DNA from: a virus
Strand: one strand, 5' to 3'
Length of the DNA: 32,901 nt
Virus record (IMG/VR): IMGVR_UViG_3300032753_000112
Coordinates: 1 to 32,901 of that record
This document shows, one piece after another, positions 1,077 through 23,774 of the stretch (its first letter is position 1; each line of letters opens with the position of its first letter). The notes beneath the pieces are model-generated. The model made no database searches. It was given only the letters and a program-made list of their open reading frames with translations, and had not been told where the DNA came from. Both the position numbers and the translations under genes were made by a program.

Positions 1077-1105
1077 TATTTTTTCTTTTCTATTGCCATA
1101 AATAA

Positions 1106-1135
1106 AAAATGTCTATCATTTTTGATAGACATTTT
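1106..1135 (-). terminator. Rho-independent terminator of the tmRNA gene
   Basis: Perfect 13-bp inverted repeat (AAAATGTCTATCA / TGATAGACATTTT) with a 4-nt loop, directly after the tmRNA 3' end. On the minus strand it runs into TTTTTTATTT. Confidence 0.85.
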
Positions 1136-1136
1136 G

Positions 1137-1498
1137 TGGAGCTGCCCGGTTACGGGCCGGGGTGTTGCTAGCTAACTTAAATTACTCTTTCACAAGCTTA
1201 GGATGTTTTCTAACATCTCAAAATATTTAGTTTATCTGTTTCAACTTAAACTAAAAAATTATTGGGTTTATTATACACAACCACTTGTTTGACTTTTTAA
1301 CAGAGTCACCTGCTTCAACAGACTAGGCAAAAGCCACTTCGTTGATCAAGTTGTTCGAGAATGCGAAAGCGATGTCCTCGCTAGTTGCTATTTCGTTGTC
1401 ATTTAATTGTTTATTGCTTCTTATTAATCGGCTATGCAACATCCGATGCTTGTATCATAACTTACTTTACACTAACAGTCTAATCGAAAATCAGCCCC
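1137..1498 (-). ncRNA. ssrA: Transfer-messenger RNA (tmRNA)
   Basis: About 362 nt. Read on the minus strand, the 5' end GGGGCTGATTTTCGATT matches the conserved tmRNA start, and the 3' end CAGCTCCA pairs with it in a 7-bp acceptor stem (one G-U). A T-arm (CCCGG, 7-nt loop, CCGGG) precedes it. Long-range P2 pairing is visible (ACAAGC with GCTTGT). A pseudoknot upstream of the tag fits PK1: ATCGG/CCGAT interleaved with TTGC/GCAA. A further hairpin GATGTT-AGAA-AACATC lies in the 3' half. The CCA is not fully encoded (ACA follows the discriminator region). The T-loop lacks the usual TTC, which is odd. It has its own host-type promoter and a terminator. Its job is to rescue stalled ribosomes and tag the nascent chain; no smpB is in the window, so host SmpB or a gene elsewhere would be used. 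Confidence 0.92.
1323..1400 (-). other. tmRNA tag-peptide reading frame
   Basis: After the PK1 region an open frame starts around GAC (1400-1398), preceded by TTAAAT, and ends at TAG (1325-1323). It encodes 25 residues that begin DNEIATSEDI and end NLINEVAFA, after the alanine supplied by the charged tmRNA. The resume codon is inferred from the U and A at -5 and -4, as in E. coli tmRNA; one codon earlier (AAT) is possible. The tag is longer than the usual 8-15 residues and ends in AFA, not in LAA. Confidence 0.7.
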
Positions 1499-2129: not shown

Positions 2130-3518
2130 TTATTCTATTTCAAAGTTCATTAACATACTATCCATATCATCCACAAATTCTACATATGGATTTAAATTCC
2201 ATTTATTAAATAACTTATTTAATTCAGATATATCTTCATAATTTTCTTCAAATGAAGAAGTTACTACTCTTAATTGTATTAAGATTCTATCGTCAATAGC
2301 TTTTAATTTAGCTTCACTATAAAACTGTAATTTCTTAAAATCCATCAACATTTCATAGTTTTTTTCTAAAATTTCTTTATTATATCCAATTTTTCTGGCT
2401 ACAATTAGATTCTCCCACTCAATATTTACACATGCTTTGCACAAATTTTCTAAAAATGTTATATTTTGGTACTCATTATTAGTATGTTCATTAAAATAAC
2501 CAATAGATACATTAGTGCATTCATTAATATTTTGAATAAAATTTGCTGAATCAGTAAATGAACCAGTGTCATCTAATTCAAATTCCATACCATGTTTACC
2601 TAATTCTTCACATAAACTCTGTGCAAACTTATCAGAACAAGTTCTAGTATAACTTTGGTGTGTAATTATAGAACTATATTTACGCCTATCAAATGATATA
2701 CACTTAGTTATCTCATTTAAATGCTCATTTTTATCAAATTCTTGCATTAACGCATATGAACCAATACCACCAACTTCTTCGCCAATGAAGAAATAATATA
2801 ATCCAGGCACTTTATTTTCAATCATATATAACATACATGTAACACCTGCTTTATCATCCGCACTTAATATAGTTTTACCATCGCTACATACAAATAAATT
2901 GTTAGATTTTTCAAAAGTCATTAATTTTACCTTAGTGAAATCTCGACAAGCAGAATCAAAATGTGAAGTAAACATTGTATTACTTTCTCCTATTTTTATA
3001 TAGTAGTTACCATAATTATCTTCTATTAATGGTATAGGCACATATTTTAAAATGGCATCTTCATACCCATGAGGGTATGTTTGGTAGCATAAAGAATTAA
3101 ATGTATATAAAATATCAGTTGGTTTATACTCAAAATGTTTTTGTTCATATGGTGTGACATCTACTAATTTATAGTCAATATCATCATATTGTTCAGGTAT
3201 TCTATTATTATATTCGCTTATAAAGCCATCTATTTCTCTTTGAGAAAATTTTCCTTCAAAAAAATTAGTAATGAATTCTGTAATATCAATAGTTTTGGTT
3301 TCTCTATTATACATATGTACTTTAAATTTACCTTCTGATGATAAATCTAATAATCTATAACCAAAAGAATTTTCTTCCATATGAGAACCCATAATTCCAA
3401 AAGATATATTATCACAGATATCTAAAAGCAATGCCTCTAATCTTATTGTATAAGTAAATATAACTTTTTTATCCGTAATTTCAGTATTCTTTTTCTTTTG
3501 CTTTCTTTTACGACTCAT
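2130..3518 (-). CDS. M20/M28/M42-type zinc peptidase
   Basis: 462 residues. After a basic start (MSRKRKQKKK) and a 130-residue N-terminal region of unknown fold comes a co-catalytic di-zinc peptidase domain. All expected ligands are visible: SHFD (His186, with the HxD Asp188), LSADDKAG (Asp221/222), the GEEVGGIGS motif (Glu247 as general base, Glu248 as ligand), SFDRR (Asp277) and EHTNNEY (His345). In this clan the enzymes are amino- or carboxypeptidases or small-amide hydrolases; which one cannot be told here. A C-terminal helical region follows. No signal peptide is seen, so it should act in the cytoplasm. It is first in a three-gene minus-strand run behind a host-type promoter. Confidence 0.85.
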   Translation of the reverse strand: MSRKRKQKKKNTEITDKKVIFTYTIRLEALLLDICDNISFGIMGSHMEENSFGYRLLDLSSEGKFKVHMYNRETKTIDITEFITNFFEGKFSQREIDGFISEYNNRIPEQYDDIDYKLVDVTPYEQKHFEYKPTDILYTFNSLCYQTYPHGYEDAILKYVPIPLIEDNYGNYYIKIGESNTMFTSHFDSACRDFTKVKLMTFEKSNNLFVCSDGKTILSADDKAGVTCMLYMIENKVPGLYYFFIGEEVGGIGSYALMQEFDKNEHLNEITKCISFDRRKYSSIITHQSYTRTCSDKFAQSLCEELGKHGMEFELDDTGSFTDSANFIQNINECTNVSIGYFNEHTNNEYQNITFLENLCKACVNIEWENLIVARKIGYNKEILEKNYEMLMDFKKLQFYSEAKLKAIDDRILIQLRVVTSSFEENYEDISELNKLFNKWNLNPYVEFVDDMDSMLMNFEIE

Positions 3519-11517: not shown

Positions 11518-12063
11518 TTAATTTTTCTTTTTTTTTATTTCTTCTTCAGATTTTTCTCTCAAAATTTGTTTACCTTTTCGTATCCAAGTTTTGATAGTAT
11601 TAATATTTTTATCCAATAATAAAGATATATCAGCATATTTTGTTTTTTTAATAATAAATAATTCCATTACTTCTTTATAAGGTTCTGGTAAATTGTCTAT
11701 TTGTTCCAAAATTATGGCAACTTTTTCTGTATCAGTAATATCTTCCGTATCTTGTATATCTTCTATTATTACACTATCTTCGGTTATAATATCTTGATAT
11801 ACAGTTCTTTTATTTAAGTTTATTTCACGTATTGTTTTGTTTTTGGCTATTGTAAATAACCAAGTAGAAAATTTGGCTATTTCTTTATCATAAGATAAGA
11901 TATTATCGAATGCAGCGATATAAGAACTAGTAGCTATATCTTGTGCCATATCTTTATCTTTACATATATTATTGATAAAAGAAATCAACTTTGGATTATA
12001 CTCTTCGTAAAATTTAGAAAAATCCTCACCAGTTTGCTGTTTAAATAAATATTCGGTATTCAT
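11518..12063 (-). CDS. ECF-type sigma-70 family RNA polymerase sigma factor
   Basis: 181 residues. Region 2 (residues about 15-85) contains FYEEYNPKLISFINNICKD, DIATSSYIAAF and FSTWLFTIAKNKTIREINLNKR, the usual core-binding and -10-recognition pattern. An acidic linker (EDIQDTEDITDTE) is followed by region 4 (about 125-175): NLPEPYKEVMELFIIKKTKY and the helix-turn-helix DISLLLDKNINTIKTWIRKGKQIL. The size and two-domain layout are those of extracytoplasmic-function sigma factors, common in Bacteroidota but unusual in phages. No anti-sigma gene is adjacent. It is the first gene of a two-gene operon with the glycosyltransferase. Confidence 0.9.
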   Translation of the reverse strand: MNTEYLFKQQTGEDFSKFYEEYNPKLISFINNICKDKDMAQDIATSSYIAAFDNILSYDKEIAKFSTWLFTIAKNKTIREINLNKRTVYQDIITEDSVIIEDIQDTEDITDTEKVAIILEQIDNLPEPYKEVMELFIIKKTKYADISLLLDKNINTIKTWIRKGKQILREKSEEEIKKKKN

Positions 12064-16722: not shown

Positions 16723-18933
16723 TTATTTTAAACTTTTAATTCTTTCTAAGATTGATTGTACATCTTTATCAGAAAGTTTGTCCTCTTGAATTAAAGAATC
16801 ATGGTTTACTAAAGTTTTAGCAGATTCATTTTTCTTTAAATTTCTAGTGTACCAGAAATGTTCAACAGATGATTCAGTTGTTAAATCGTAACCTAATTTA
16901 GCTTGAGATAAAATTGATTTCTTTGCAGATTCATTTAATCCTTCCCATAATGGTTTTACGCTATCAGGCATTAATCTAACTATTCTTTCTTCCATTGTTT
17001 CGCTCTTAACAGCTAAAGCTTCTTGAACTAATTTTAATACATCAGCATTATTGAAGTAAGATTTACCATTAATATGTATTTTTACTAATTCTTGTTCTTC
17101 GTTAGTTAATGAATAATAACTATCTACTTGAGCCTTATTTAAGAATTTTAAGAAGTGTAAATCATTAGTTTCAACAATTTTACGCTTTTTAGCCTCAGCT
17201 ATCAAATTATCTATTTGTAAAGATAATTGAGAATCTGATTCAACTGTAAAAGATGTTGCACTTGGTGTTTCTGTTGTCATAACATTAGTCACATCAATTG
17301 TTGGCGCAACTTCTGGTAATTCAGTTGTTACTTCAGTAGTAACATCAGCAGGCATTTCAATTGGAGCTTCTTCTGTTGGAAGTTCAGTAGTTGTTTCAAC
17401 TGTAATTGGTTCTTCAACAACTTCTTCTGTTTGTTCAGATGTTTCATCAGCAATTGGTTCTTCTTCAATAATCTCTTCGACTTCGTCAATAACTGGTTCT
17501 TTAGTTTCAACTTCGTTTTCAAATCCCCATTCTTCTAATGTAGGAATAACATTTGAAGATGCATCTTCGTTAACTTTGTTACCATTTAATTTTTCTGCAA
17601 TTAATCCAGAATATGAAATAGCTTTATCTAAATTTTCAGCGATATATTCACCATAAGCAATATTATCATCTAAATGTTCAGCAATGTATTCAGAGTAAGC
17701 AATGTTACCTTCAACATGTTCAGCTAAATATTCAGAATAAGCAATAGCATTGTCAACATTTTCAGCAATATATTCACCATAAGCAATAGTTTTATCTAAG
17801 TTTTCAGCAATATATTCGCCATAAGCAATAGCTTTATCTAAATTTTCAGCGATATATTCACCATAGGCGATAGATTTATCCAAGTTTTCTGCTAAATATT
17901 CTTGATAACCAATAGATTTATCTAAATTTTCAGCAATATATTCTGTATATCCAATAGTTTTATCTAAGTTTTCAGCAATATGTTCAACATAAACAATATT
18001 TTTATCTACGTTTTCAGCGATATATTCTGTATAACCAATAGCTTTTTCAAGATTTTCTGCTAAATAATCGTTATGTTTGATTAATTTTTCAGAAGTTTCT
18101 CTTAAACTTTTATTTTCATTTACTACTACTTGTACAGTTTCAGCTAAATAATCTAAGTATTTAACCATTTGTGAATTAGTGTTATTTAACACTTCGTAGT
18201 ATTCAAGAAGTTTTTCCAACTTCTTAGGATCCATATTGCCCTTTTTAACTGATTCATCAATAGACTTTCTAGTGTTGTCTATTTCTTTAATTAAATAGTT
18301 AGAGTAACTAGATAATTGTTCTTTTGTAACATAATCATTGTTGTTCATGTTGAATATATCATTAATTTTTGACTCGTCATTCATTTCGTAGATTCTGAAA
18401 TTGGAGTTATTTGAATAATTTAAAGATTCATTTATAGAGCTCATTCTTGCAGAACCAAAACCTGGATCAGCAACTATGTCATAAGTGAATAATTTTTTAA
18501 GAGTTACAGTACCGTCATTCTCGGTAACTCCTGCTGCTCTAGAAGAAACGAAAATAGGGCATTGATCTTCAACTAATGCTCTTGCTTCTTTCCCCCAAAA
18601 TGTTGATAATAATTGAATTTTACCTTCTATTCTATTATGATCTTTATTAAAAACAGCTTCTTTCACAATATGTGAAGCTCTTGATAATGAAGTATCAAAT
18701 ACATCTGGATGATCAAATTCACCATAAACACCCATAGTAGTTATTCTTTGGTTAAGTTCTTCTAAACATGGTAAAAATTTATTAGCTGTATAAATTCTCT
18801 CATTACGATTTTTAATATCGAACTCAGTGAAAGTACCACCTAACAAATATGTTTTTTTACCACCAGAATTAAAAACCTCTTCGTTTAAACTTAATGGATT
18901 ATTATTATTTTCAATAATCATTACTGGTTTCAT
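16723..18933 (-). CDS. 21: Prohead protease fused to a scaffold-like repeat domain (gp21-like)
   Basis: 736 residues. Residues 25-165 are a T4 gp21-type serine protease: GGTFTEFDIKNRNERIYTAN, YGEFDHPD (catalytic His75), LSRASHIV, CPIFVSSRAAG (Ser130/131) and FTYDIVADPGFG. T4 gp21 has only about 210 residues. Here a helical region (200-286) follows, then 12 copies of a 14-residue repeat of the type YGEYIAENLDKAIA (287-452), which equals two heptads and should form a long coiled coil. Next come an acidic Glu/Pro/Thr linker (about 455-565) and a folded C-terminal domain (about 570-736). No separate gp22-like scaffold gene is visible, so the fusion probably acts as scaffold and maturation protease. 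An N-terminal S-L-N-E site may be self-cleaved. Confidence 0.92.
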   Translation of the reverse strand: MKPVMIIENNNNPLSLNEEVFNSGGKKTYLLGGTFTEFDIKNRNERIYTANKFLPCLEELNQRITTMGVYGEFDHPDVFDTSLSRASHIVKEAVFNKDHNRIEGKIQLLSTFWGKEARALVEDQCPIFVSSRAAGVTENDGTVTLKKLFTYDIVADPGFGSARMSSINESLNYSNNSNFRIYEMNDESKINDIFNMNNNDYVTKEQLSSYSNYLIKEIDNTRKSIDESVKKGNMDPKKLEKLLEYYEVLNNTNSQMVKYLDYLAETVQVVVNENKSLRETSEKLIKHNDYLAENLEKAIGYTEYIAENVDKNIVYVEHIAENLDKTIGYTEYIAENLDKSIGYQEYLAENLDKSIAYGEYIAENLDKAIAYGEYIAENLDKTIAYGEYIAENVDNAIAYSEYLAEHVEGNIAYSEYIAEHLDDNIAYGEYIAENLDKAISYSGLIAEKLNGNKVNEDASSNVIPTLEEWGFENEVETKEPVIDEVEEIIEEEPIADETSEQTEEVVEEPITVETTTELPTEEAPIEMPADVTTEVTTELPEVAPTIDVTNVMTTETPSATSFTVESDSQLSLQIDNLIAEAKKRKIVETNDLHFLKFLNKAQVDSYYSLTNEEQELVKIHINGKSYFNNADVLKLVQEALAVKSETMEERIVRLMPDSVKPLWEGLNESAKKSILSQAKLGYDLTTESSVEHFWYTRNLKKNESAKTLVNHDSLIQEDKLSDKDVQSILERIKSLK
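17578..18075 (-). repeat. Tandem 42-bp coding repeats in the scaffold domain
   Basis: Twelve head-to-tail units of 14 codons, consensus Y-x-E-Y-I-A-E-N-L-D-K-x-I-A. The central units differ by only one or two residues; the outer ones (HNDYLAENLEKAIG first, YSGLIAEKLNG last) are more diverged, as expected if the array grows and shrinks in the middle. Confidence 0.92.
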
Positions 18934-21675: not shown

Positions 21676-22524
21676 CTATTTCTTGAAAATACAATCACCT
21701 ACAAAATATTTTTTTCTTTCTTTTATATTTAAGTCATTATATTCATCTGGATTATATAATATAACCGTTTGTGAACCCCAATTAAAATAACCTAATGTGT
21801 CAAATATGTTAACATTATCTCCTTTTTCTTTTAAAAAGTCAAAATCTTGTATTGTTGATTCACCAACTAACATTAAATAAACTGGCTTTTTTGTAGTCTC
21901 AAATTTTAAAATCCATAAACTATTTCTACCAAAAAAATCATCGTTGCCTTCAATTGGAATCATTCGAGTTAATTTACCATTAATAGGACAATGTATTCTA
22001 TGGTAAAAACTAACTAATAATTTCATATTAATATAGTTATAACCTTCTACATCTATATCAAGTTTTTTCAAATCTTGTGTTGCATATCTTCCAGATTCTT
22101 TTTTTAGTCTTAAAATTTGATTATCTGGTCTACCTTCTTTATCAAATTCACCTATAGATTCAATATAACATTCATTAGGAATTATCATTTCACAATCTTT
22201 GATATTTTCCCTAATTTTAGCATCGACTTGTTTGGATAATTTACGACTGAAAAAATCCATAAAAGATATTTTAGGCGCTTTCATATCATATTGAAATAAA
22301 GAAGAATTAAAATGATAATTTTGATTAAATCCATATTTAGGATTATTCATAAAATCTTCATCATCTGCTGAGAAATGATCAATAATTTTATCTAAAACTT
22401 TAGAATTAATTAACTTATACCTGAAAGATTTTAATTTATTTAAAATCTTTCTTTCATTATCACCTTGTTTTATTAATTTTTCTATATCTTTAAGATTCTT
22501 ATGATCTTCGTAACTTAATATCAT
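21676..22524 (-). CDS. psd: Phosphatidylserine decarboxylase homologue
   Basis: 282 residues, close to bacterial Psd (about 320). Segments line up with E. coli Psd in order: SFMDFFSRKL (FNEFFVRPL), IIPNECYIESIG (VMPADGVISQLG), VSFYHRIHCPINGKLTRMIP (YLSPRDYHRVHMPCNGIL), FFGRNSLWILKFET (LFARNERVICLFDT), VYLMLVGESTIQ (AQILVGATIVG) and GYFNWGSQTVILY (GRFKLGSTVINLF). Gly250-Ser251 is the expected self-cleavage site that makes the pyruvoyl group; His178 is the triad His. The triad Asp (SPADG) appears as Glu118. Known members convert phosphatidylserine to phosphatidylethanolamine. No clear membrane helix is seen. The ATG overlaps the stop of the DUF3326 gene (TAATG), and the portal gene follows. Confidence 0.85.
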   Translation of the reverse strand: MILSYEDHKNLKDIEKLIKQGDNERKILNKLKSFRYKLINSKVLDKIIDHFSADDEDFMNNPKYGFNQNYHFNSSLFQYDMKAPKISFMDFFSRKLSKQVDAKIRENIKDCEMIIPNECYIESIGEFDKEGRPDNQILRLKKESGRYATQDLKKLDIDVEGYNYINMKLLVSFYHRIHCPINGKLTRMIPIEGNDDFFGRNSLWILKFETTKKPVYLMLVGESTIQDFDFLKEKGDNVNIFDTLGYFNWGSQTVILYNPDEYNDLNIKERKKYFVGDCIFKK

Positions 22525-23774
22525 TATATTGTTGTAAATTTTGTTGGTTCTATTGGTCTTTTAAGTGAATTAATGCTTATACCATTTTTAATAGCTGTTA
22601 GAACACCAGCTGCTTCAAAATAATTATTTACAAAATAAATCTCCTTATCAGAAAATTTACTCAAATCATTTTTCATTACATTTTTTTCATCCTTAATAAC
22701 AATTACTGGTATATTTTGCTCAATAGCTGCTAAAAACTGTAACCCAATACATCTATCAGGAATTACTAAAGCATGTATATCTGAATTAGTTAATATCCCA
22801 TTAACACCTTTAATAGGTTCAACAATTTTTGGACTTTTATACATACCTTTTAATACGCAATGCAATTCAGTTACAGATAATGTCTCTGGTGCTTTTGCTG
22901 GATCAACAATCGGTAATTTATCGCCTAAACTATCTATAATAGAAGTCATCGGTGAATGTGCTACACTTACATTTAATATATTTGATAAAGAATGTGTAAT
23001 CATAGCTTCTATACCACCCCAAGGATTAACTATTAATTCATCTTTAAAATACGAATCCATTAATTCGTTACCACCTTGTATTTTAGTATGTAGTGCGAAA
23101 GAATTATATTTATCTTTATTATCATTTATAATTTTTAAAAGTTTTTCTAATCCTTCTACTTTACCACATGCAATACCATTTTCATTATAAAATGATTCAT
23201 ATATAGGCGCATCATTTAATTCTAAAACATCTATATCAGCACCCAAAGTTACTCTACCAGCTGATGCTGCATTAATAGTTAACCTTACATCTGAGCCACC
23301 ATCTGCTATAACTAAAATTTTATTCTTTCTAACTGGATTTAAACCTATTTGACCCATCATAAAGCGATTCAAAATACTACCCTCTACATATAAAGTATTA
23401 TCAGTCATTTCATTTAAGTCTGCTCCGTTTACTACATTTGGGTGTGTTATTAAATTATCACAACACCCTGCTAATAATTTAGCAGCAGGATTACCATCAC
23501 CAGAATCTCCACCAACTTGAGCTCCTATCCCTGTTGGTATAGTTAAAATTACATTAAATTTTTCATTATTTACATAAGTTCTAGGTTTAAACTCAAAAAT
23601 ATTCTTTATAGGAAATTGATTATCGCTAGCTACTGCACAGTCAATATCAATTTTATTATTATCACTACTTATAACCGCAAATCTGATAATATTTTTATCT
23701 TTTAATTTATCATTTAAATTAGCGATTGTAAGCCTATCTAAGTTTAACTCTAATTGTATCTGTGATACGTCCAT
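22524..23774 (-). CDS. DUF3326-family protein
   Basis: 416 residues. IPTGIGAQVGGDSGDGNPAA, CCDNLITHPNVVNGADLNEM and NTLYVEGSILNRFMMGQIGL (residues 79-145), then NKILVIADGG, VNPWGGIEAMITHSLSN and VPD-type segments, match what I recall of DUF3326. That family occurs in cyanobacteria, plants and scattered bacteria, and its function is unknown. The GIG...GGDSGDG glycine-rich stretch and the many invariant Asn/Asp/His residues suggest an enzyme with a nucleotide or metal ligand. The first 75 residues are a separate N-terminal region. It is the first gene of a two-gene unit with the Psd homologue, behind an exact TAATATATAAT box, so it is probably expressed late with the head genes. Confidence 0.82.
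   Translation of the reverse strand: MDVSQIQLELNLDRLTIANLNDKLKDKNIIRFAVISSDNNKIDIDCAVASDNQFPIKNIFEFKPRTYVNNEKFNVILTIPTGIGAQVGGDSGDGNPAAKLLAGCCDNLITHPNVVNGADLNEMTDNTLYVEGSILNRFMMGQIGLNPVRKNKILVIADGGSDVRLTINAASAGRVTLGADIDVLELNDAPIYESFYNENGIACGKVEGLEKLLKIINDNKDKYNSFALHTKIQGGNELMDSYFKDELIVNPWGGIEAMITHSLSNILNVSVAHSPMTSIIDSLGDKLPIVDPAKAPETLSVTELHCVLKGMYKSPKIVEPIKGVNGILTNSDIHALVIPDRCIGLQFLAAIEQNIPVIVIKDEKNVMKNDLSKFSDKEIYFVNNYFEAAGVLTAIKNGISINSLKRPIEPTKFTTI

Follow-up and report, generated by a model that had tools for sequence, protein, structure and literature searches.

A divergent one-piece tmRNA gene with a long peptide tag in a phage fragment of predicted Mahaphage type

Phage tmRNAs are already known. 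The original prediction for the locus described here called tmRNA genes rare in phages, and this is fair at 2.3% of phage genomes (PMC9004378), yet tmRNA (called by ARAGORN) and SmpB have already been reported in huge phages (PMC7162821), and the marine megaphage Mar_Mega_1 carries a tmRNA (PMC9723777). Among the huge phages are the Mahaphages, and Bacteroidetes are the predicted hosts of those above 634 kb (PMC7162821). On the bacterial side, the commonest tag length is 10 aa (PMC11915505), and the ALAA ending of the tag is conserved except in Mycoplasma, where the ending is AFA (PMC3985003). We describe a tmRNA family, divergent in the T-arm and with long tags, that is new with respect to the open-licence literature; the accessible text of PMC7162821 and PMC9723777 holds no description of such T-arms and tags.

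We analysed 32,901 nucleotides of viral DNA (IMG/VR record IMGVR_UViG_3300032753_000112), hereafter the window, in whose numbering positions are given. A complete one-piece tmRNA gene (ssrA) lies at 1137-1498 on the minus strand, from G1 to A73, and is identified by its RF00023 match, by a family model and by covariation. The prediction of a phage-encoded tmRNA therefore holds. In a permissive Rfam scan, RF00023 aligned with the gene end to end (model positions 1-374, 35.3 bits, E 1.7e-12), and the family model R1, a sequence-only model made from 16 other phage tmRNAs, matched 1135-1492 (-) with E 2.2e-27. Because R1 was built without the window and still finds its tmRNA at this value, the locus is not a chance match. 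The proposed check by covariance model was borne out in part, since the match is full-length but lies below the gathering cut-off of 47 bits, which is a detection rule and not a biological trait, and a default Rfam scan of the window accordingly does not list it; taken at its word, the refuting condition set with the prediction would dismiss the gene at default cut-offs. ARAGORN at default settings reported no tmRNA in the window, and an RF00023 search of the whole record missed the gene, giving no first-pass candidate. The folding-energy z-score of the tmRNA is -2.5. The 3' end of the gene lacks an encoded CCA, with A-CAA following A73 in the sequence. The predicted divergence from host tmRNA is strongly supported: 21 tmRNAs found in 28 Bacteroidota genomes score 102-155 bits with RF00023. 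ARAGORN detects 19 of these 21 and reads from them tags of the kind GENNYALAA and GNTQYAMAA. Two of the tags that it calls seem to be spurious, and the readable host tags are about 9-10 aa long and end in ALAA or AMAA.

The window appears, from its major capsid protein (MCP), to be a 32.9-kb fragment of a Mahaphage-type megaphage; this MCP shares about 61% identity with those of LR756502 and LR745206, whose genomes measure 642 and 635 kb, respectively. The starting set for the family was 80 capsid-gene relatives, in which RF00023 gave full tmRNAs in four records. Further tmRNAs were gathered by profile HMM, which brought the number of distinct tmRNAs read, counting that of the window, to 45. 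R1 matches occurred in 28 of 47 records, and a T-arm pattern matched 19 contigs, all within the divergent megaphage tmRNA family. Default ARAGORN found none of the 45 family tmRNAs, and one of 18 tested sources scored above the Rfam cut-off. The closest tmRNAs to that of the window are those of contigs L170 (93% identity), L105 (80%) and L106 (77%), the others being at most 62% identical. Exact-match searches with DNA patterns taken from the window tmRNA gave no second viral contig, and blastn of this tmRNA against phages gave no relative. The gene usually shares the strand of the capsid gene and lies downstream of it at a distance of 2.4-3 kb; about 13 kb separates the two in the window. Upstream of the window tmRNA is a peptidase gene with weak PepT-like matches (2130-3518, minus strand), and the peptidase and tmRNA neighbourhood recurs in LR756502 and LR745206; a search for relatives through this gene confirmed none. 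The window also encodes, all on the minus strand, a sigma-70 family factor limited to regions 2 and 4 (11518-12063), a prohead protease protein with about 12 repeats of the EYIAENLDK type (16723-18933) and, between head genes, a DUF3326 protein (252 bits, 22524-23774).

The pairing of the tmRNA is strongly supported by covariation. When a 36-pair structure is laid over an alignment of 20 family members, 94.4% of its cells hold standard pairs and 18 of the 36 pairs show changes on both sides, values that none of 500 shuffles reached; when the partners were slid as a control, pairing fell to 35-50%. Compensatory changes are seen in the acceptor, the T-stem, a 3' hairpin and P2, the last bearing out the predicted P2 pairing. 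Of the elements bearing on the putative pseudoknots PK1-PK4, covariation supports one stem adjoining P2 and the 3' hairpin.

The acceptor stem and T-arm are present as predicted. The 5' strand of the acceptor, GGGGCTG (1492-1498, minus strand), contains G3, and the 3' strand, CAGCTCC (1138-1144, minus strand), contains U70, with A73 at 1137; the stem pairs at 7/7 positions, G3:U70 included. The original prediction had suggested loss of alanylation from the unusual T-loop. We rejected this suggestion, because all 45 of 45 family members keep a fully paired (7/7) acceptor stem, G3:U70 and A73, that is, the alanine charging signals are intact throughout the family. The T-arm itself reads CCCGG-CCCGTAA-CCGGG (1145-1161, minus strand). 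Its loop departs from the canonical TTCRANT, which is usual for tmRNA and not strictly defining, and retains C56 and R57, which are readable in nearly all family T-loops. A TTCRA loop occurs in one of the 45 members (L105 only), and in 31 of the 45 an RGCRRTR-like loop sits on a T-stem of 6 bp. The more distant lineages, to which the window belongs, show variants such as CCCGTAA, CTCGTAA (in L170, the closest relative), ATCGTAC and AGTCGGAG. In solved complexes, SmpB touches the D-loop side of the elbow, whereas EF-Tu, uL16 and 23S rRNA (H38, H89) are the partners of the T-arm (PMC8363625). Accordingly, the T-loop change need not disturb SmpB binding; it could weaken contacts with EF-Tu or the ribosome.

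The tag frame, DNEIATSEDIAFAFSNNLINEVAFA, is located at 1323-1400 on the minus strand, with the resume codon GAC after UAAAU and the stop codon TAG, and encodes 25 aa ending in AFA. This frame is conserved in the relatives and is also the one returned by ARAGORN with a relaxed cut-off. A start two nucleotides after UAG ('TSED...') was rejected, since a G-codon after UAAAU fits both ARAGORN and the host tags. Family tags are 25-30 aa long (45 tags, of which 43 were read automatically and 2 by eye). None of the 45 ends in AA: each closes with A or V, preceded by a residue other than A. The AFA ending is shared by the window, L105, L106, L168 and L170, and most tags of the family end in LV, VA, TV or TA. 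A tag core, [TS][RSK]E[DE]LVxAL, is common to all lineages. In 24 tags of 29 aa, pN/pS of the core is 0.42, and shifting the frame raises it to 0.98 and 1.64; the tag frames of the window and L105 give 0.26. The tag frame is under amino-acid constraint. The C-terminal (L/M)AA of the ClpXP-type SsrA tag is absent in the window, and the tag is most likely not the standard ClpXP signal. As it is long and ends in AFA rather than ALAA or AMAA, it is probably not read normally by host ClpXP.

The gene also appears to have its own promoter of the Bacteroidota (host) type. On the minus strand, the -33 element TTTG (1554-1557) is followed after N19 by the -7 element TATCTTTG (1527-1534), the layout that had been predicted. 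The same layout is found in L105, L106, L170, L081 and others, and the -7 motif, TAnnTTTG, lies upstream of the tmRNA in 30 of 44 family members. At the other end, the predicted 13-bp intrinsic terminator is found at 1101-1135 (minus strand) as a hairpin (1123-1135 with 1106-1118) and a U-rich tail, and terminator-like sequence lies downstream of the tmRNA in 42 of 43 family members. The sequences ATACGACA/TGTCGTAT (1532-1539 and 1563-1570) form an inverted repeat across the promoter, and L106 has ATACGAA/TTCGTAT at the matching place; this repeat is perhaps an operator.

The original prediction had proposed looking for smpB elsewhere in the genome. SmpB was found neither in the 33-kb window fragment nor in the small relative fragments; large relatives do encode it, namely LR756502 (W01), LR745206 (W02), LR756504, LR756501, Lak-A1, G041 and G043 (by label W01, W02, W03, W04, G041, G043 and Lak-A1). 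The SmpB of LR745206 aligns over its whole length with solved structures of SmpB, 1P6V and 4V8Q among them, and the phage SmpBs fall among those of Bacteroidota in a weakly supported tree.

Taking these results together, we consider, with a probability of about 0.8, that the window carries a functional tmRNA of a Mahaphage-type megaphage with a Bacteroidota host, which would rescue ribosomes and whose tag would not be the standard ClpXP signal. The tmRNA would be transcribed as a single-gene unit from its own host-sigma promoter, and host AlaRS would load it with alanine by way of G3:U70. To judge from the relatives, it would bind an SmpB that is probably phage-encoded elsewhere in the genome. 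In infected cells it would then enter stalled ribosomes and free them through translation of the tag and stop codon that it carries. The 25-aa AFA tag would probably bypass the usual reading by host ClpXP, and the tagged proteins may pass to another protease or be left intact.

Regarding the fate of the tagged proteins, the tag may be read by a phage Clp unfoldase together with ClpP, as a private degradation channel serving viral quality control and amino-acid recycling, a possibility we hold only tentatively. Of the 12 large relatives, 10 encode ClpP, which in five of them is present as two full-size copies. A Clp-type unfoldase with two AAA domains, about 700-745 aa long and scoring below the ClpB and ClpA equivalog cut-offs of NCBIfam, occurs in W01, W02, G071 and W04, the first three with a VGF motif resembling the ClpP-binding loop. 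No Lon was found in the phage relatives, and the tag core, as T(S/R)EDLVxAL, is kept over all lineages, which also favours such a channel. However, W04 has the unfoldase and no ClpP match, the Clp proteins may do other jobs, and none of the SmpB and Clp genes lies within the window. The wider proposal, that a megaphage clade has a private pathway of T-loop-divergent tmRNA, phage SmpB and a long tag made for phage Clp and unread by host ClpXP, seems doubtful to us. In the related megaphages L315, L316, L322, L306, L308 and L313, the Clp-type unfoldase has two AAA domains and no evident N-domain, and ClpP is often present in two full-size copies.

If the tag had simply lost the ClpXP signal, ribosomes would be freed and phage proteins spared. 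The lack of an AA end in all 45 tags, with A or V last and a residue other than A before it, agrees with this account, but a longer tag with a conserved core is not expected from plain degron loss, and the tags of Mycoplasma, which end in AFA (PMC3985003), are still degraded by another protease, so that we regard rescue without destruction as rather unlikely. It is less likely again that the tag is aimed at host Lon, as is the case for the long AFA-ending tags of Mycoplasma. Gur and Sauer are said to have identified Lon in 2008 as the protease for those tags. The AFA ending of the window, L105, L106, L168 and L170 is indeed that of Mycoplasma (PMC3985003); however, the likeness is limited to three residues, the endings of most family tags are different, and the phages themselves encode no Lon. 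Finally, a decoy that ties up host SmpB or blocks host tmRNA, or a decaying copy, could be suspected from the divergent T-loop, and the tag-less tmRNA of mycobacteriophage DS6A offers a precedent (PMC4131195; PMC11915505). Constraint on the tag frame, stop codon and G3:U70 across the 45 members and the SmpB carried by related phages make this very improbable, and a decaying pseudogene was rejected on the same constraint.

In summary, tmRNA is widespread in this Mahaphage clade, where it is overlooked by default ARAGORN and lies mostly below the Rfam cut-off. The family supplies natural T-loop variants that retain alanine identity, and its 45 tags show the near-universal AA ending gone together with tag lengthening. 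Accordingly, the question of why phages carry tmRNA becomes testable, as rescue alone against redirected proteolysis.

Compared with known systems, the window tmRNA resembles the one-piece tmRNA of Bacteroidota (RF00023) in its end-to-end structure, G3:U70, A73, the resume codon after UAAAU, a tag frame with a stop codon and, in the window's relatives, an SmpB partner; it differs in its score of 35 bits, in the lack of a TTCRA T-loop and in the 25-aa tag ending in AFA. It shares this ending, in place of ALAA, with the tag of Mycoplasma (PMC3985003), an unrelated organism in which the rest of the tag is different. As in the methylophage Melnitz, a phage tmRNA is thought to be active in infection, but the ssrA of Melnitz is two-piece, permuted and of the alphaproteobacterial type, and lies beside a glutamine riboswitch (PMC9004378). 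As in the reports on huge phages (PMC7162821, PMC9723777), trans-translation genes are encoded by megaphages; the tmRNAs in the accessible text of PMC7162821 were ARAGORN calls, unlike the divergent family. The Mahaphage outgroups LR756500 and Prevotella phage Lak-A1 are related megaphages that likewise carry tmRNAs, matched by RF00023 at 95.5 and 54 bits, but with short tags (GNNAEMRMAA and DDEIDFRMAA, respectively) and TTC-type T-loops. The tag of LR756504 has 24 aa and ends in VAA. In LR756501 (L304, 735 kb), a group I intron (RF00028, 96 bits) splits the tmRNA T-loop (2660-2891 and 2889-3232, minus strand); with splice points placed by eye, the joined T-loop would read TTCGAAT and the acceptor GGGCTCG/CGGGTCC keeps G3:U70, and the tag, also read by eye, has 33 aa and ends in LVLA. 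Since the outgroups thus include short AA tags, a 24-aa VAA tag and a 33-aa LVLA tag, the long tags and the loss of AA seem to have arisen within Mahaphage-type megaphages.
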